From: Bacteroides sp.
Lineage (GTDB): Bacteria; Bacteroidota; Bacteroidia; Bacteroidales; Muribaculaceae
NCBI GenBank assembly: GCA_014802045.1
Contig: JAAVDA010000022.1
Coordinates: 103,956 to 136,122, forward strand
DNA length: 32,167 nt
Direction: 5' to 3'
Position numbers and translations under genes: made by a program. A model generated the notes under the pieces. It did not search any database. It saw nothing but the letters and a program-made list of their open reading frames with translations, and was not told where the DNA came from. Shown piece after piece: positions 15,160-22,450 of the stretch. Position 1 is the first letter of the stretch. Each line of letters begins with the position of its first letter.

Positions 15160-15233
15160 CGGGGTGTAGCTCAGTTGGTTAGAGTACGCGTCTGGGGGGC
15201 GTGAGGTCGCTAGTTCGAGTCTAGTCACCCCGA
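15160..15233 (+). tRNA. tRNA-Pro (anticodon GGG)
   Basis: The 74 bases fold into a full cloverleaf. The acceptor is CGGGGTG with CACCCCG, the D-stem GCTC with GAGT, the anticodon stem CGCGT with GCGTG around loop CTGGGGG (anticodon GGG), and the T-stem GCTAG with CTAGT around TTCGAGT. The discriminator is A and no CCA is encoded. The C1-G72 start is typical of bacterial tRNA-Pro. It sits at the boundary between core genes and the accessory operon, a common integration position, but no second copy of its 3' end was seen in the window. Confidence 0.95.
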
Positions 15234-15248
15234 CTAAAGCAAAAGCAG

Positions 15249-15557: not shown

Positions 15558-15851
15558 TCAGAAGTCATCCATCATATCATAGTCATCCTGCTCCTCGTGA
15601 AAATCGTCGTAGGCAGGAGAATCACATTCATCATCCAAGCCAATTGATGATGAATAAGACGAGCTGTCATAATCCGTATCGTCCGTTGTGCCCCACGAGA
15701 CAGAACTGCTATAGCTACCGCAATCAGACTCAGAGTAAGGATTGTCAGCTTCCTTTTCCTCTTCCCAATAATATGTCCGACTCCTTCGGCTTAGCCTGTT
15801 GAATAACCACCTAACAAGCAAAAACTCACCAACGCAACTCCAAAACCTCAT
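15558..15851 (-). CDS. Small acidic Ser/Tyr/Asp-rich protein, unknown function
   Basis: The 97-residue frame has no recognisable family. Residues 1-26 are hydrophobic then basic (MRFWSCVGEFLLVRWLFNRL, SRRSR), which could sit at or in a membrane. From about residue 30 the protein is low-complexity and strongly acidic, with many Ser, Tyr and Asp residues (clusters such as YSSSVSWGTTDDTDYDSSSY) and an end of DYDMMDDF. It is the last frame of the minus-strand operon, 87 bases after the PP2C stop, with a 13-bp hairpin and repeat structure in between. An acidic, hydroxyl-rich tail next to a kinase and a phosphatase makes a phosphorylation target conceivable, but that is inference. Existence as a real gene is likely, not certain. 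Confidence 0.5.
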   Translation of the reverse strand: MRFWSCVGEFLLVRWLFNRLSRRSRTYYWEEEKEADNPYSESDCGSYSSSVSWGTTDDTDYDSSSYSSSIGLDDECDSPAYDDFHEEQDDYDMMDDF

Positions 15852-15862
15852 ATCCGTCTCAT

Positions 15863-15912
15863 TTTACAGTATCACTTTACAGTATCACTTACGTCCATTG
15901 TGATACTGTAAA
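15863..15912. repeat. Three copies of a 13-mer forming a direct repeat plus hairpin
   Basis: TTTACAGTATCAC occurs twice in tandem (15863-15875, 15876-15888) and once inverted as GTGATACTGTAAA (15900-15912). The second and third copies form a perfect 13-bp stem with an 11-base loop. The first copy can pair with the inverted arm instead. It lies between the PP2C stop and the small acidic gene. It could attenuate or terminate the transcript, protect the upstream mRNA, or be a regulator's binding site. Confidence 0.75.
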
Positions 15913-15938
15913 AATGCAGCTCTAATTTCAGATGCAAA

Positions 15939-16751
15939 TCACTCATACATTACTGCCAGAGAGTAATCGTCAAGAGCCAATAGTCCTTTCTCTTGTAGAG
16001 AGCCAAGCCATTTCTTATAATAGTGCTTATCGTATACGGCCTTCCGCAGTCTGTCAATCACCTCTTTTTCAAATTTGAAGGTTTGCAGACTCATACCTTT
16101 TTTTATTATGTTGCTATTTTTTGATGCTGCTGATACCGCATCATATAGTTCTGACGCATATTCATTTTGCATGGAAAGTTCATACATCATCAGAATATAA
16201 TGAGACAAAGCATCACTTGCCACGAATACAAAGGATTCATTGGTCATTCTGAACTCGTCGCACTTGAATCCTGAAAGATTCAGCTCGTCCTTGCAGTTTA
16301 TCAAGTGAGGAGGCCGGTTGAAATCAGCCAAAGCGGTAAATGAATGGCTTAATCTTTTAGTCTTGTAATTGTAGTGAAAAACGACGCTGTCACCATATGT
16401 CATCCATCGGCAGATGCCATCCGGTAATCTCCAGACTGCCGCAAGGGTGGCAAATGATCCTTCGTCATAAAACTTGTCAAGCGCCATGCCTCCAAGTTTC
16501 TTTGCCGACTGCTCAGCCTTTGCGTAATATGCTTCCCATATCCGTCCTATCCACTCATCAAGCTGTTCTGCCGACGTAATCGGTTCTGTCGGAAGATTAT
16601 GCAAAAGATATTTTGACCATCTGTCGGCAAAAAGTCCTCCTCCGCCGGCTCCATCCGACACTGCAATCATATTTCTACGGGCCTCTGCCGCATCTTCATT
16701 TAGTGCGTTCCTCTCCGGTTTTCTGATGGTAATGCATCTGGTCTTTATCAT
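15939..16751 (-). CDS. PP2C-family Ser/Thr protein phosphatase
   Basis: The 270-residue protein has the PP2C metal-binding landmarks: NEDA near residue 18, MIAVSDGAGG (S32 to G37, D33 a metal ligand), GSFATLAAVWR (98-108) and MTYGDSVVFHY (117-127). FVFVASDALSHYI (D180) and the C-terminal LDDYSLAVM (D261/D262) complete the set. It should remove phosphate from Ser/Thr residues in the cytosol; no membrane segment or signal is present. In E. coli the similar PphC (YegK) acts opposite the YegI kinase and is encoded beside the vWA protein YegL; the gene set here is parallel. Its start overlaps the stop of the vWA gene by four bases, indicating coupled translation. Confidence 0.85.
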   Translation of the reverse strand: MIKTRCITIRKPERNALNEDAAEARRNMIAVSDGAGGGGLFADRWSKYLLHNLPTEPITSAEQLDEWIGRIWEAYYAKAEQSAKKLGGMALDKFYDEGSFATLAAVWRLPDGICRWMTYGDSVVFHYNYKTKRLSHSFTALADFNRPPHLINCKDELNLSGFKCDEFRMTNESFVFVASDALSHYILMMYELSMQNEYASELYDAVSAASKNSNIIKKGMSLQTFKFEKEVIDRLRKAVYDKHYYKKWLGSLQEKGLLALDDYSLAVMYE

Positions 16752-18193
16752 TTTGAGGCACTGATATTTGTGGGGGTTCCTATATCCATGAGTTTTATGA
16801 GGGTAGACATATCCGCGTTGACAGCCATGGCGCTATGCCTTACCGTAGCATCTGTGGCCTTGAGTTTGCAGATCTCCTCATTATAGCGAAGCGGCAGCAG
16901 GCTTGAGATGTCAAACAGGTCCATGGCATACGAGTTGCCCTGCAGCTCTTCTCTCGATTTCGGGAAAGTCAGGCCGCCATTGTTATTGGCAGTGATGTGG
17001 ATGTTGAACAGCAAAACATTGCCGTCGTTTGTAAACATCGATTTCAGCTCATTGGCTTTCTGCTGTATCTCTTCCTTTGTAGCGCCGTTATACACTCCGT
17101 CCGTTATGTGGATTATGGTCGGCGGATAGCAGTCCTTGTCGTGGTGTTTTTCCATCCACTGCTCAAGTAGCCTCTTGGCATGGTCAAAAGCCTTGTGGAA
17201 ATGAGTCCATGACCCTGAGTGGGTCGGGTCAATCCACTGCACCTTTTCCACCTCCTTAAGCTCCACTCCCTTGCGTGTGCGTTTCTCTTCTTTGACTGTA
17301 ATCCGTTTATAGGGGTTGTCGCGCAGCTCCTGCGGCGAAACGAAATCACGTCCTTTGAGGTTCCCCTCCCAGGCGCTGTAAGAGCTGTCGCCATAGCCCA
17401 CAACGGCGATATCGAAGTAGTGTCTCACCTCATTAGCCTTTATGCAGCGGAGCACGAGCTCATTTATCTGGCGGTTGACAATCCTTGCCACAGCCTCCGA
17501 CATTGCCATCGTCTCTCCCATGAGCGTGGTCTGCTGCCTCATGCTCACCGAATGGTCAAGCAGAAATATGAATGCCGTTGGAGTGGAGCGTGTGATCTGC
17601 GCTGTGTAGGGCACCTTGCTTTGAATCTGCCGGCTGACAGAGGGAATCGTAATTCCGAAATTACCGATATTGAGAATCCTTTCGAGAGGGATGAAATTTT
17701 TCACGAGTACCTCCGCCTGATAAAACTGCTGTTCGTCGGCATCGAGGTCAAAATGTTTTCTAACCTTGAGAGATGCGAAGTGTATCTTTTTGAAGTCTTC
17801 AATCGTCCCTCCTACATTAGCGCCGTTGCGCGTGGCGTTGCGGTCGGCAAACTTAGTCTCCTGCTCAAAGATTACCTCCGGGTCTATTTCAAGAATCACC
17901 GGGTTTGTGATGCGCCCGTCGTTCATGGCCACATACATCATCGGATGCTCGGTGACAAAGCTCACCCTCACATAGTTTTGCAGATTGTCTCTTCTGTCGA
18001 GCGACTTGGAGAGATCACCCCCTCCGGGCTTGGGAATCTGTATTCCCTTTGCCTGGCAGTCTGCCCACGAGTAAAGGCCGCCGTTGTCAATGATAGATTT
18101 CAGATTGTCGCGGTCGGTGAAATGGTAGAGTCTCTTGATATTATGCTTGTCAATCAGCTCCTTGAATTTCTGGAAATCATTGCGTTTTGCCAT
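16748..18193 (-). CDS. DarT-like ADP-ribosyltransferase domain fused to a vWA domain
   Basis: The 481-residue cytosolic protein has two parts. Residues about 20-180 resemble DarT (DUF4433) ADP-ribosyltransferases: KRLYHFTDRDNLKSIIDNGG (H24, the NAD-binding start of the family), NYVRVSFVTEHPMMYVA, KFADRNATRNGA and QAEVLVKNFIPLERI, whose E161 aligns with the catalytic glutamate. The arginine of thymidine-specific DarT in the PMxY segment appears replaced (TEHPMMY), so activity or base choice may differ. Residues about 205-430 are a vWA domain with an intact MIDAS: FIFLLDHSVSM (D213, S215, S217), SGSWTHFHKAF (T330) and IIHITDGVYNG (D365). The vWA part resembles TerY/YegL-type proteins. It starts 12 bases after the preceding gene and overlaps the PP2C start by four. 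DarT enzymes modify DNA bases; the target here is unknown. Confidence 0.72.
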   Translation of the reverse strand: MAKRNDFQKFKELIDKHNIKRLYHFTDRDNLKSIIDNGGLYSWADCQAKGIQIPKPGGGDLSKSLDRRDNLQNYVRVSFVTEHPMMYVAMNDGRITNPVILEIDPEVIFEQETKFADRNATRNGANVGGTIEDFKKIHFASLKVRKHFDLDADEQQFYQAEVLVKNFIPLERILNIGNFGITIPSVSRQIQSKVPYTAQITRSTPTAFIFLLDHSVSMRQQTTLMGETMAMSEAVARIVNRQINELVLRCIKANEVRHYFDIAVVGYGDSSYSAWEGNLKGRDFVSPQELRDNPYKRITVKEEKRTRKGVELKEVEKVQWIDPTHSGSWTHFHKAFDHAKRLLEQWMEKHHDKDCYPPTIIHITDGVYNGATKEEIQQKANELKSMFTNDGNVLLFNIHITANNNGGLTFPKSREELQGNSYAMDLFDISSLLPLRYNEEICKLKATDATVRHSAMAVNADMSTLIKLMDIGTPTNISASK

Positions 18194-18205
18194 GGCTGTG
18201 AATGT

Positions 18206-18811
18206 TTAGTCGTCAAAAGGGAGAGTCAGCTCTTCTGCCTCGGTTTTTGTTTTGTTCTCAGATTCGTAGGGGTATATCCCTTCCACGTAGGCCTTGATGA
18301 GATAGGCGTGCGAGAGAGGTTTGGTCGGGCTGTCTACCTCGCAACATGTATTGTAGTCGAGGAGCACTATGGTCTTATCTTTAGCAGCTATTCTTAGCCG
18401 CTCTATTATGTCGGCAACCTTATTCTCCAGCACCCATCTGAATGTCGGTATATAGATTTGATGCTTGGCCTCTACATAGCCTAATATCTCTCTGCCGGCT
18501 ATCCCTTTCTGATGTCCCAGGACTTTTCCATGTTTTCTCACAGTGCGCTTCAGGTTTTTCATCGTCCCGTTTCTCAGCATGGTCGGATCGATGCCTTCGG
18601 TTTCAAACACCTTCAGCGCTTGCCATATCCCCTCTACGCACTCGGCAGTCGCTCCGTCGCTGAACGGCACCGGAATGCCACCGTGAGGATAAAACGGACT
18701 CAATTTCACCAGGCCATCCTTGGCGTTGCTTGTCACATCCGCAATAATCGCCTCCGGATACTTCTTGAGAATATTCTCTATTTTCTTACGTTTCGATTCA
18801 ATCACTATCAT
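18206..18811 (-). CDS. NADAR-like conserved protein, possible ADP-ribose hydrolase
   Basis: ATG 18811 (MIVIESK) gives 201 residues. An in-frame TTG at 18826 lies inside a promoter-like element and was not chosen. Residues 35-70 read VKLSPFYPHGGIPVP and then CVEGIWQALKVFE. The spacing recalls the NADAR/YbiA pattern LSNFxP...VEHxxQxxK. Later parts (KHGKVLGHQKGIAGREIL, EAKHQIYIPTFRWVLENK) are conserved-looking and rich in His/Lys. NADAR domains handle ADP-ribose linkages, and some reverse guanosine ADP-ribosylation made by DarT1-type toxins, so a reversal or antitoxin role beside the DarT-like gene is attractive. The similarity is distant and judged by eye; it could instead be an unrelated uncharacterised family. 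No membrane segments. It lies 17 bases after the kinase stop, within the same operon. Confidence 0.5.
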   Translation of the reverse strand: MIVIESKRKKIENILKKYPEAIIADVTSNAKDGLVKLSPFYPHGGIPVPFSDGATAECVEGIWQALKVFETEGIDPTMLRNGTMKNLKRTVRKHGKVLGHQKGIAGREILGYVEAKHQIYIPTFRWVLENKVADIIERLRIAAKDKTIVLLDYNTCCEVDSPTKPLSHAYLIKAYVEGIYPYESENKTKTEAEELTLPFDD

Positions 18812-18823
18812 AAATCCATCTCG

Positions 18824-18831
18824 CAAAATTA
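18824..18831 (-). promoter_or_regulatory. Possible internal promoter before the NADAR-like gene
   Basis: The minus strand reads TAATTTTG followed by CG, overlapping the kinase stop codon, with ATG 18811 only 12 bases further on. If active it would express the four downstream genes apart from the kinase. No -33 TTG at standard spacing was found. Confidence 0.4.
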
Positions 18832-21800
18832 ATACCTCACAATTAAAACTCCATCCGGAAACGCACGTTCACCTATATGTTTGATTGATTTTGGAATATT
18901 CACGCTTTGCAGTGACTTGCAATCACTAAAAGCGTAATCACCAATAGTCGTCACAGAGTCAGCTATTGTTATGCTCCGTAGTGCTGAGCACTTACTAAAA
19001 GCGCAGGCTCCTATAGTCGTCACAGAATTAGGTATTACCACGTTCTGCAGTGCCGAGCAGTCCTCAAAAGCCCCGTAATCGATAGTAGTCACAGAGTTGG
19101 GAATAGTTAAGTTCTGCAGCGACTCGCATTTGTAAAAAGCGTGGTCACCTATAGTCGTTACCGAGTCGGGAATTATAATTTTTTTAGACTTACCTATATA
19201 GGCAATAAGTAACCCGTTTGAGTCAGTCAAGAAATTGTTAGATACTAATTTGTAACTAGATTTCGGACTCAGGGAAATACATATATTGGAACAGCCTGCG
19301 AATGGATGTATGCCGATAGTCGTTACTGAATCTGGTATTGTCACGCTCTGCAACGACGAGCACATCTGAAAAGCACCGTCTCCGATAGTCGTCACAGAGT
19401 TGGGTATAGTCACGTTCTGCAATTTGCAGCAGTAAAAAGCCTCGCTTCCTATAGTTATCACAGAGTTGGGTATAGTCACGTTCTGCAGCGACTTGCAGCA
19501 CGTAAAAGTATTGTATCCGATGGTCATCACAGAGTTGGGTATAGTGACGTTCAGCAGCGACGAGCACCAAGAAAAAGCACTGTTACCTATAGTAGTCACT
19601 GAGTTGGGAATTGTCACACTCTGTAGCGACGAGCACGAAGAAAAAGCAGATTTCCCGATAGTAGTTACTGAGTCAGGAATCGTTACGCTCTGTAGCGACT
19701 GGCACGAAGAAAAAGCACTGTCACTGATAGTCGTTACTGAGTTAGGAATTGTTACGTTCCGCAGCGACGAGCACCAATAAAAAGCACTGTTACTGATAGT
19801 CTTCACGGAATTAGGTATTACCACGTTCTGCAACGACTTGCAGGAATAAAAAGCGTGGTTACCTATAGTCATCACAGTGTCTGGGATTATAATTTTTTTA
19901 GACTTACCTATATAGGCAATAAGTAGTCCATTAGAATCAATCAAGAAATTATTAGAGACTAATTTATAACTTGATTTTGGGCTTAGGGAAATACAGATAT
20001 TGGAACAACCTTCGAATGGATTTATGCCGATATGTGTTACTGAGTCTGGTATAGTGACTTTCAGCAATGACGTGCAGTTTCTAAAAGCGTTGTCACCGAT
20101 ACTTATCACTGAATTTGGAATTGTTACGCCCTGCAAAGCCGTACATTCGTCAAAAACTCTGTCTCCTACAGTAGTCACAGAGTTGGGAATCGTTACGTTC
20201 TGCAGAGACTCGCACGAATAAAAAGCAGATTTCCCGATAGTAGTTACTGAGTCAGGAATCGTTACGTTCTGCAGAGACTTGCACGAATAAAAAGCAGATT
20301 CCCCGATAGTAGTTACTGAGTCAGGAATCGTTACGTTCTGCAGAGACTTGCACAAATAAAAAGCAGATTCCTCGATAGTAGTTACTGAGTCAGGAATTGT
20401 CACACTCTGCAGTGACGAGCATGAAGAAAAAGCACTGTCACTGATAGTCTTCACGGAATTAGGTATTACCACGTTCTGCAACGACTTGCAGGAATGAAAA
20501 GCGTGGTTACCTATAGTCGTTACCGAGTCGGGAATTATAATTTTTTTAGACTTACCTATATAGGCAATAAGTAGCCCATTAGAATCAATCAAGAAATTAT
20601 TAGAGACTAATTTATAATTTGATTTTGGGCTTAGGGAAATACAGATATTGGAACAGCCTGCGAATGGATTTATGCCGATATGTGTTACTGAGTCTGATAT
20701 CGTCACGTTTTTCAGCCCCGAGCAATTTCTAAAAATAGTATCACCGATAGTAGTCACCGAGTCTGGTAAAGTGACTTTCAGCAACGACGTGCAGTTTCTA
20801 AAAGCGTTGTCACCGATACTTATGACTGAATTGGGAATTGTTACGCTCTGCAGTGCTGAGGACTCAAAAGCACTATTTCCGATGGCAGTTACTGATTTGG
20901 GTAGCGTAACATTTTCACGTTTACCTATATAGGCAATAAGTAGTCCATTAGAGTCAGTCAAGAAATTATTAGATACTAATTTGAAATTTGATTTAGCGCT
21001 TAGAGAAATACTGATTCCGAAACATCCGGCGAAAGGATTTATTCCAATAGTAGTCACAGAGTTTGGAATTGTAACACTCTGCAGAAAATAGCAATAACTA
21101 AAAGCGCCGTTTCCGATAGTTGTTACTGAGTCAGGTATTGTAACGCTCTGCAGTGCTGAGCACTCAAAAGCACTGTCACCGATAGTGGTCACTGAGTTGG
21201 GTATTGTCACGCTCAGTAACGCAGTGCAATATTGAAAAGATCTGTCACAGATAATCTGTGTGCCGAATTTGATAGAATATTTTCTTGAAGAGCTCCAATC
21301 CGGGTAATAAAGGAGGCGCTTGCCGTCGGGGCTGTAGATTACGCCATATTCATCAGCGACGCCGGCTTTGATGTCTTCTTCTGTGCAGGTGGTGTCTATT
21401 TTTTCGGGAGGGGTGGAGGCGACTCTTTTGTGTGCTGCCGGCTGTTTGGGCTTAGCAGTCATGAAGAGCCGGAATGAGAGGGAAGCGAGGCTGTTCTGAG
21501 AGAGGGCGATGTAGAAGATGCCTGAGAGAAGATCCAACTCCGTGTCGTTGGTGAGTTTCTGTATCTCCCTGAGCATGGCAGAATCAGCGGGAGAGCGGAA
21601 ATCGTCGGCTGAGAGGAGCATGGTGTCACCGGTGGCGGCGGATTTGAGCTGCGGGTCAAGGGCAATCGCTTTGAGTGAGAGCGCAATCACGGCAATCGTG
21701 AAGTCGTCGATATGCTCGTTGAAGTCGGAGTCTGTGCGCAGTGGATGGCGATAGTCGGGGCTGCCGATCTCTCTGGCCCGCTCCTCTTTCATGGTGGGCA

Positions 21801-22353
21801 CAAACATACCGTCGTAGTCAACCAGCGCGAGAGAGCCATCCTTGCGCACAAGGATGTTGTCGGGCTTCAGGTCGCCGTGGGCAAACGGCTGGGCGAGCAG
21901 CCACGCCGCCATGCGGTTGAACCGATAGCTAAGCATCCCGAGCTCATATTTATCGGTCAGATGGCGCTTCAGGTAGGCGTCAAGTGTCTCACCCTCTACC
22001 CACTCCATCACCACAACAGGGAATTCCTCGCGGGTGCATTGGGCGGAGTCGACAAACAGTTCGTTTTCGAGATACCGAAGCGGCAGAATGTAGGCCGACG
22101 ATATCACCTCCAGCTCATCGGCAATCTTCCGGTAGCTCTCATCGCGTCCTTTCTGGTCTTTGATGAAGCATTTCACCGCGTAGAGTTTGCCGTCGGTCTC
22201 ATCTTTCATCTTGAAGACAACTGCAAAATTGCCGCTTGACATCACGGGGTCACCGTGGCTGTCGAGCACGGGGCGGAGTGAGGTGAGTTCACTGAAATTG
22301 TCTTCAGCGGAAAGAATCGCCTCGCGATATTCCGAAATCAAAGGGTATTCCAT
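18829..22353 (-). CDS. Ser/Thr protein kinase fused to BspA-type leucine-rich repeats
   Basis: The 1174-residue protein has no signal peptide, so it should be cytoplasmic. Residues about 25-290 form a protein kinase: a loose glycine loop (SSGNFAVVF, 39-47), K61 in LYAVKCFIK, catalytic loop FAHGDLKPDNILV (H159, D161, K163, N166) and metal motif LVDYDGMFVP (D179/D181). HGDLKPDN and DYDGMFVP are like the YegI-type kinases found with vWA and PP2C partners. A linker (300-365) with a Pro/Lys-rich part follows. About 29 repeats of 23 residues, SAFxxCxSLxxVTIPxSVTTIG, run from residue 371 to 1162. BspA-type repeats usually occur on surface or secreted proteins, so the cytoplasmic kinase fusion is unusual. 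The repeats may sense a ligand or target. It is the first gene of the operon. Confidence 0.88.
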   Translation of the reverse strand: MEYPLISEYREAILSAEDNFSELTSLRPVLDSHGDPVMSSGNFAVVFKMKDETDGKLYAVKCFIKDQKGRDESYRKIADELEVISSAYILPLRYLENELFVDSAQCTREEFPVVVMEWVEGETLDAYLKRHLTDKYELGMLSYRFNRMAAWLLAQPFAHGDLKPDNILVRKDGSLALVDYDGMFVPTMKEERAREIGSPDYRHPLRTDSDFNEHIDDFTIAVIALSLKAIALDPQLKSAATGDTMLLSADDFRSPADSAMLREIQKLTNDTELDLLSGIFYIALSQNSLASLSFRLFMTAKPKQPAAHKRVASTPPEKIDTTCTEEDIKAGVADEYGVIYSPDGKRLLYYPDWSSSRKYSIKFGTQIICDRSFQYCTALLSVTIPNSVTTIGDSAFECSALQSVTIPDSVTTIGNGAFSYCYFLQSVTIPNSVTTIGINPFAGCFGISISLSAKSNFKLVSNNFLTDSNGLLIAYIGKRENVTLPKSVTAIGNSAFESSALQSVTIPNSVISIGDNAFRNCTSLLKVTLPDSVTTIGDTIFRNCSGLKNVTISDSVTHIGINPFAGCSNICISLSPKSNYKLVSNNFLIDSNGLLIAYIGKSKKIIIPDSVTTIGNHAFHSCKSLQNVVIPNSVKTISDSAFSSCSSLQSVTIPDSVTTIEESAFYLCKSLQNVTIPDSVTTIGESAFYSCKSLQNVTIPDSVTTIGKSAFYSCESLQNVTIPNSVTTVGDRVFDECTALQGVTIPNSVISIGDNAFRNCTSLLKVTIPDSVTHIGINPFEGCSNICISLSPKSSYKLVSNNFLIDSNGLLIAYIGKSKKIIIPDTVMTIGNHAFYSCKSLQNVVIPNSVKTISNSAFYWCSSLRNVTIPNSVTTISDSAFSSCQSLQSVTIPDSVTTIGKSAFSSCSSLQSVTIPNSVTTIGNSAFSWCSSLLNVTIPNSVMTIGYNTFTCCKSLQNVTIPNSVITIGSEAFYCCKLQNVTIPNSVTTIGDGAFQMCSSLQSVTIPDSVTTIGIHPFAGCSNICISLSPKSSYKLVSNNFLTDSNGLLIAYIGKSKKIIIPDSVTTIGDHAFYKCESLQNLTIPNSVTTIDYGAFEDCSALQNVVIPNSVTTIGACAFSKCSALRSITIADSVTTIGDYAFSDCKSLQSVNIPKSIKHIGERAFPDGVLIVRY
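18868..21243 (-). repeat. BspA-type LRR-encoding 69-bp repeat array with four longer units
   Basis: About 29 in-frame units of mostly 69 bases lie inside the kinase gene. Four units carry an extra roughly 32 codons (core YKLVSNNFLIDSNGLLIAYI), ending around 19150-19320, 19865-20035, 20515-20685 and 20890-21050. The first three of these are nearly identical at the DNA level, which favours recent duplication or unequal crossing-over. The array also creates several open frames on the plus strand that are not genes. Confidence 0.9.
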
Positions 22354-22374: not shown

Positions 22375-22382
22375 CAAAGGTA
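22375..22382 (-). promoter_or_regulatory. -7 promoter element of the kinase operon
   Basis: The minus strand reads TACCTTTG followed by CA, an exact TAnnTTTG match 22 bases before the kinase ATG. A -33 TTG at standard spacing is not visible. It is the only good candidate for the start of the five-gene operon. Confidence 0.6.
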
Positions 22383-22407: not shown

Positions 22408-22450
22408 AAAAAGAGGGGAGGCTGCGCCATCGGGATGATGGGCAGCCTCC
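22408..22450 (-). terminator. Rho-independent terminator of the carboxyltransferase gene
   Basis: GGAGGCTGC (22417-22425) pairs with GCAGCCTCC (22442-22450), and inside it CCATC (22427-22431) pairs with GATGG (22437-22441), with one bulged G. On the minus strand the hairpin is followed by CCTCTTTTTAT. It separates the carboxyltransferase gene from the kinase operon promoter. Confidence 0.85.

Follow-up and report, generated by a model that had tools for sequence, protein, structure and literature searches.

We analysed a stretch of 32,167 nucleotides (the whole of which we call the window) from contig JAAVDA010000022.1 of a Bacteroides sp. genome of the family Muribaculaceae. Its minus strand carries a compact cassette of four co-directional genes (Table 1), which encode, in transcription order, a protein kinase with leucine-rich repeats (LRR), a protein of the Pfam family DUF6939, a fusion of a DarT ADP-ribosyltransferase domain with a TerY-like vWA domain (DarT-vWA), and a PP2C-type phosphatase. 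The genes are tightly coupled, as an earlier note on this DNA had remarked: the kinase and DUF6939 genes are separated by 17 bases, DUF6939 and DarT-vWA by 12 bases, and DarT-vWA overlaps the PP2C gene by 4 bases. An alternative TTG start at 18826 would lengthen DUF6939 to 206 residues. The note had described a five-gene operon, of which four genes and their layout stand; because DarT and vWA form one protein and the fifth open reading frame (ORF) is not conserved, the conserved unit consists of four genes.

Table 1. Coordinates of the cassette, its domains and nearby features in the window
Feature	Position	Strand	Length	Remarks
Kinase with BspA-type LRR	22353-18829	-	1174 aa	putative sensor kinase
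DUF6939, NADAR-like	18811-18206	-	201 aa	putative ADP-ribose eraser/antitoxin; from the ATG common to homologues
DarT-vWA fusion	18193-16748	-	481 aa	putative effector
DarT domain	residues 23-199 of DarT-vWA			PF14487, 127.8 bits (cut-off 22.5)
TerY-like vWA domain	about residues 195-474 of DarT-vWA			PADLOC TerY, 175.9 bits
PP2C-type phosphatase	16751-15939	-	270 aa
ORF (fifth gene of the earlier note)	15851-15558	-	97 aa	87 bases beyond PP2C
TACCTTTG element	22375..22382	-		21 bases upstream of the start codon of the kinase gene; read from sequence; weak
Terminator-like G+C-rich inverted repeat, then T run	22415..22450	-		read from sequence
tRNA-Pro(ggg)	15160..15234	+		beside gyrB

The gene order kinase/DUF6939/DarT-vWA/PP2C is conserved across distinct groups of Bacteroidales. 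Relatives of DarT-vWA were found in 9 of the 198 genomes sampled from the family (E 1e-20) and in 4 of the 295 sampled from the order (E 1e-60), this genome being counted in both. They include ten full-length fusions, two of them from this genome. DUF6939 lies directly upstream in all ten and PP2C directly downstream in nine (the exception is L007), which is above chance and bears out the expectation that the same gene set recurs in the order. The remaining three family matches are DarT proteins devoid of vWA, one with DUF6939 (L008) and two without (L009, L010). The cassette is absent from the 16 other genomes of the same genus listed in the family search.

Using DUF6939 as the query in named genomes, we obtained 471 loci with a relative and analysed the best 80, a set biased to close kin; the DUF6939 ORF was called in 77 of them (missed in L067, L082 and L110). 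Of these 77 loci, 71 have DarT and 68 have vWA no more than 1.5 kb away, 65 have PP2C in a range of 4 kb, and 59 have a kinase in a range of 6 kb. Twelve vWA loci have no kinase: in 11 the contig ends less than 1.5 kb upstream, and in L072 it extends for 10 kb. Among the six loci without DarT, L063 and L132 stop at a contig edge, L133 is an orphan, L081 retains the kinase and a full-length DUF6939, and the DUF6939 ORF is shortened in L069 and L122. Carriers are sporadic and include Muribaculaceae, Prevotella, Segatella copri, Parabacteroides distasonis and Phocaeicola; the bins of L063, L094 and L097 carry other labels and are perhaps misbinned.

Two other contigs of this genome hold related sequences. 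The end of the cassette is found again on contig C37 (L039:921-5361), with 99.91% identity over 4441 bases, followed by what reads as a transposase-like ORF; this is either a second copy or a strain or assembly duplicate. A very divergent DUF6939 relative (33.1 bits) lies on contig C17 (L040:8599-9213), behind a 704-residue protein with a weak WG-repeat match.

The DarT domain and its DUF6939 partner

The transferase domain that the earlier note had recognised in the vWA protein is a DarT by its Pfam match (Table 1). The Pfam vWA model stays below its cut-off on the same protein, and the curated NCBIfam equivalog toxin_DarT, which corresponds to the DarTG2/macrodomain toxin, gives 58 bits where 150 are needed. 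We placed the catalytic and NAD-site residues by profile alignment to the best solved relative, DarT1 of E. coli C7 (8baq; two further DarTs score lower). Among 50 aligned rows, Glu161 and Arg76 are invariant, Met86 is found in 46 and Arg68 in 44. The MIDAS (metal-ion-dependent adhesion site)-like residues Asp213, Ser215, Ser217, Thr330 and Asp365 of the vWA domain are present in all 47 rows that have this domain.

We compared the cassette protein with NADAR-linked and with macrodomain-linked DarTs. Against a profile built from 10 NADAR-linked DarT1s, the DarT of the window scores 117.8 bits and the 13 vWA-fused rows score 106.7-123.1; against one built from 9 macro-linked DarT2s, the values are 25.7 and 18.4-32.0 bits. 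The latter set consists of DarTs with a macrodomain-like neighbour, recognised by eye from a motif. In a tree of 40 DarTs, whose bootstrap had not settled, the 13 vWA-fused proteins form one group (99/98) and the nine macro-linked proteins another (100/99). Asn119, found in 50 of 50 rows, aligns with Asn104 of DarT1, reported as guanine-coordinating (PMC11543638), and with His119 of DarT2. By these comparisons the domain fits the NADAR-linked DarT1 better than the macrodomain-linked DarT2, and we rejected the latter type as less likely on the profile scores and the tree. Weighed together, the profiles, the tree and Asn119 make guanine the likely target.

Its partner matches PF22075 at 249.7 bits, a family that Pfam labels as of unknown function. 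The likeness to NADAR suspected by the earlier note held up in profile comparisons. When the 56 aligned DUF6939 members were scanned with Pfam, 24 matched PF22397, the DarT1-associated NADAR antitoxin, at E values up to 1 (best 1.8e-5), and the second-most-matched family reached only 5. We aligned the DUF6939 profile with one of 11 NADAR proteins linked to DarT1, whose reference row matches the NADAR of Geobacter lovleyi (8bat, E 1.1e-35). This gave 74.6% with hhalign (E 2.6e-5), a more diverse set gave 87.3% (E 3.8e-6), and the overall range was 74.6-89.7% (E 2.3e-6 to 2.6e-5, each for a single comparison). The profile score of 44.2 compares with a maximum of 25.0 over 200 column shuffles and with 11.4 for the reversed profile, and the control alignment of DUF6939 with DarT-vWA yielded 0.4%. 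Glu60 and Lys67, invariant in 56 of 56 members, align with Glu88 and Lys95 of the E. coli C7 NADAR, which are named as catalytic together with a third residue, Asp171 (PMC11543638). An AlphaFold2 model of DUF6939 was obtained with pLDDT 91.8 and pTM 0.85. On these profile comparisons, DUF6939 is a diverged relative of the DarT1-associated NADAR and a putative ADP-ribose eraser and antitoxin.

The pair also occurs outside the cassette. L033 has DarT and DUF6939 without the kinase triad, and four loci have, in a row, a DarT with a long N-terminal extension, DUF6939, and ZorA-like and ZorB-like genes (L130:8515-12844, L131:8623-12842, L134:6769-10953, L138:4739-8861). The PADLOC matches to ZorB (42.0 bits in L131, 50.0 in L134) and ZorA (20.5 in L130, 28.6 in L138) are weak, PADLOC has no match at the ZorA position of L134, and Pfam MotA, MotB and OmpA stay below cut-off at these loci. 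The four rows appear to be a Zorya-like system with an ADP-ribosylating effector pair. One of them lies on a plasmid (L138) and another on a contig classed as viral (L134).

Orphan DUF6939 genes stand in several contexts that suggest ADP-ribose chemistry. L043:1-3128 encodes a phosphoesterase, DUF6939, a canonical NADAR (188.6 bits) and an ADP-ribosylglycohydrolase (94.8 bits); in L037 the orphan overlaps a NUDIX-like gene (by eye), and on the plasmid L137 it lies near an ADP-ribosylglycohydrolase and a NUDIX gene. In L140:933-6549, an RHS-type toxin gene is followed by a 97-residue ORF and DUF6939, possibly a toxin-immunity set; the RHS tip matches DUF7587 (27.7 bits, cut-off 27) and, weakly and below cut-off, NarE/Scabin-like. 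Other orphans have no such link (L030, L034, L035, L139).

Some DarT relatives have other surroundings. In L228:1432-3554, a DarT relative directly precedes an ADP-ribosylglycohydrolase (167.7 bits), possibly another type of DarT partner. In L041:1955-3046 and L042:8335-9351 the DarT domain follows an N-terminal region of about 180 residues, and neither DUF6939 nor NADAR was seen beside it; the L042 protein has no other Pfam match.

A TerY-P-like trio with variable kinase tails

The three remaining components correspond to the TerY-P trio, as the earlier note had proposed: a TerY-like vWA, a PP2C and a kinase are encoded in one operon, with PADLOC scores of 175.9, 47.1 and 178.8 bits. The last of these, to STK_OB, covers only residues 1-268 of the kinase (model positions 1-267 of 562). 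The C-terminal zinc ribbon or OB fold of TerY-P kinases was not found in this protein, whose C-terminus consists of LRR_5 repeats (726 bits; Pkinase 58.2 bits). The Pfam model PP2C_2 scores 12.2 bits on the phosphatase, below its cut-off.

The catalytic motifs are intact. All 56 aligned kinases have the HGD motif, Lys163, Asn166 and DYDG, and all 18 phosphatase rows have Asp33, Asp121, Asp180 and Asp262. These motifs of the kinase and PP2C, like those of the vWA, are the ones expected for activity.

The kinase C-terminus is the part that varies among loci: of the 56 kinases, 34 match LRR_5, 12 Sel1, 6 WG repeats and 6 TPR_16. Because of this variation, the tail is the probable sensor, in line with the role that the earlier note had given to the repeats. 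The number of kinases varies as well. In the 74 gene chains around DarT (from 83 loci, 9 of them without DarT), 29 have one kinase, 24 have two to four and 21 have none, counts that take in chains ending at contig ends. A protein family of about 416 residues occurs in 24 of the 74 chains, for instance directly after PP2C in L126:12942-14189, and one of its representatives has a DUF1810 domain.

Surroundings of the cassette

A terminator-like repeat lies between an upstream biotin-carboxylase-like gene and the cassette (both identified by reading), and closer to the kinase stands TACCTTTG, which we take to resemble the -7 promoter element of Bacteroidetes. With these two elements ahead of the kinase, the cassette is probably transcribed from a promoter of its own; a pattern search near the cassette did not find the full two-part Bacteroidetes promoter.

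At the other end, the 97-residue ORF reached no family cut-off in Pfam, NCBIfam and PADLOC scans. Outside its own genome, among 234 loci, it matches nothing but a low-complexity stretch within an FtsZ-like gene in L101, with an E value of 5e-5 before filtering and 0.72 after it. We rejected it as a member of the cassette for want of a credible relative in these loci, and it probably lies outside the unit.

The tRNA-Pro is a possible insertion site. We scanned 27 of 29 gyrB loci fetched from the genus, and 11 of the 27, that of the window included, have a tRNA-Pro close to gyrB; the gene on the far side of the cassette has different downstream neighbours in relatives. In the relatives, the two genes that flank the cassette were not seen side by side, so no clean empty site can be demonstrated.

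The earlier note had also raised the position of the cassette relative to defence islands. Our flank survey, which covered 87 of the 142 listed flanking ORFs and had no control, showed AbiH in three ORFs, AbiE, a methyltransferase and candidate defence matches in single ORFs, and many metabolic genes. With flanks so mixed and no control, a defence island is not established.

Proposed mechanism, alternatives and known systems

We propose that a DarT1-like toxin and a NADAR-like eraser are gated by a TerY-P-like phospho-switch to form a conflict system, most likely antiphage. We give this reading a probability of roughly 0.55. The effector would be the DarT1-like ADP-ribosyltransferase, whose predicted target is guanine in DNA and which is tethered to the TerY-like vWA, the state of which would be set by the cognate kinase and PP2C. 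In the resting cell, DUF6939 would act as a NADAR-like hydrolase, clearing stray tags and keeping the cell safe. The exchangeable repeats at the kinase C-terminus (here BspA-type LRR) would sense a trigger, the vWA protein or its partners would gain or lose phosphate, DarT activity would outrun the eraser and replication would be blocked. Both homology and context give good support to the pairing of toxin and eraser. Gating by phosphorylation is suggested by the fusion of DarT to vWA and by membership of the operon, and the antiphage role by related systems and the patchy distribution. DarTG is reported to protect against phage (PMC11543638), TerY-P trios have been hypothesised to be phosphorylation-dependent switches (PMC11090510), and antiphage activity is reported for TerY-P-like modules whose kinase has an OB fold (PMC11090510, PMC7699616).

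Several observations weigh against this proposal. When scoring is reversed, with a profile of the vWA-fused DarT family, the ten NADAR-linked DarT1s range from 8.4 to 127.0 bits, and the five of them below 28 overlap or come near the nine macro-linked DarTs (-1.8 to 12.6). In the tree the NADAR-linked DarT1s are split, five beside the vWA-fused clade (fork 88/75) and five opposite. Asn119 is not diagnostic, for the macrodomain-fused DarT 7omu also has Asn there. PF22397 is not matched at all by 32 of the 56 DUF6939 members, that of the window included, and the DUF6939 of L130, the only row for which a bit score is available, scores 17.8 against a cut-off of 27. Searches of PDB sequences with DUF6939 (phmmer and profile) found no NADAR. 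Eight of the 56 kinases have Arg at Lys61, the usual ATP-binding Lys, which is present in the other 48. The mixed flanks described above point the same way, and so does the limited extent of the NADAR alignment, given below with its loosely placed third catalytic acid.

The pair could instead be a plain addiction pair fused to a TerY-P module, with the trio acting on something else and the fusion only ensuring retention. Its occurrence alone in L033 and with unrelated Zorya-like genes does show that it is separable from the trio. However, vWA is also present in 68 of the 71 DarT-bearing DUF6939 loci (in a sample biased to close kin), the vWA-fused DarTs form a single tree group, and 65 of 77 loci have PP2C behind the fusion or overlapping it, where a mere hitchhiker would be expected to separate more often; we regard such an origin as quite improbable. 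An explanation that we find unlikely, if not to that degree, is a regulated physiological switch, in which DNA, RNA or protein would be reversibly ADP-ribosylated upon internal stress sensed by the kinase repeats. The scattering of defence neighbours would fit it, as would our searches of viral contigs, which gave no DarT-vWA relative, and of phage records, which gave no DUF6939 relative (a search for canonical NADAR in viral contigs returned nothing useful). The patchy occurrence in the family and order samples, the absence from the 16 genomes of the same genus, the differing sensor modules, and the presence of the pair on a plasmid and on a viral-classed contig are better explained by conflict.

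A narrower doubt concerns DUF6939, which might be NADAR-like without being a hydrolase, and either inhibit DarT-vWA by binding or sense ADP-ribosylated nucleic acid on its behalf. The confident hhalign match is limited to about 77-89 columns of the N-terminal half, which contains Glu60 and Lys67. The third catalytic acid, Asp171 of C7, is only loosely aligned, with column 158, where the 56 members have Asp (47), Glu (4, the window among them), Asn (4) or Gly (1). The invariance of Glu60 and Lys67, on the other hand, fits an enzyme, and so do the orphans beside NADAR, an ADP-ribosylglycohydrolase, a NUDIX-like gene and an ADP-ribosyltransferase (ART)-like toxin tip, which makes a non-enzymatic role rather improbable.

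A gated conflict system of this kind would be, to our knowledge, the first DNA-modifying toxin-antitoxin pair wired to bacterial kinase/phosphatase signalling, with sensors swapped much as in immune receptors. It would give Pfam DUF6939 a likely function, that of a NADAR-like eraser, and suggest that the TerY-P trio serves to gate a fused effector, in carriers that include common gut genera. More tentatively, and with somewhat more doubt than belief, we see a modular immune platform. Interchangeable repeat-sensor kinases (LRR, Sel1, WG, TPR, sometimes several per operon) would act through a vWA/PP2C switch on a single effector that reversibly ADP-ribosylates nucleic acid and has its own eraser from a new NADAR branch (DUF6939), and the same pair would be plugged into a Zorya-like motor elsewhere.

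Among the listed literature matches, in open-licence papers (bioRxiv not covered), we found no description of this combination, and no open-licence paper searched names DUF6939. The closest known systems share parts of it. As in DarTG1 (DarT1-NADAR; E. coli C7, Geobacter lovleyi), a DarT1-type transferase adjoins a NADAR-family relative in one operon, but the cassette has its DarT in one protein with a TerY-like vWA, DUF6939 takes the place of a PF22397 member, and the operon also includes a kinase and PP2C. The TerY-P triad, including its antiphage version with an OB-fold kinase, has the same three signalling proteins (PADLOC TerY, PP2C, STK_OB); the cassette differs in that the C-terminus of its kinase consists of LRR or other repeats where the triad has a zinc ribbon or OB fold, DarT is fused to vWA and an eraser is added. 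CoCoNuT types II and III-A likewise couple a TerY-P triad to a nucleic-acid-directed effector (PMC11090510), but they use GTPase and helicase/nuclease proteins for this purpose, and the cassette has none of these. Zorya (a ZorAB motor with effectors) is approached by the loci in which DarT-DUF6939 relatives precede ZorA/ZorB-like genes; unlike Zorya, the window has no ZorAB, and these loci, with their weak ZorA and ZorB matches, represent another platform for the pair. YbiA-YarT of myxobacteria also combines an ART toxin with an antitoxin of the NADAR superfamily, but from another ART clade and another NADAR subfamily, and the accessible part of its description does not mention phosphorylation genes (PMC11125620). 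In summary, the cassette joins a DarTG1-like pair to a TerY-P-like trio, in what looks like a new combination.

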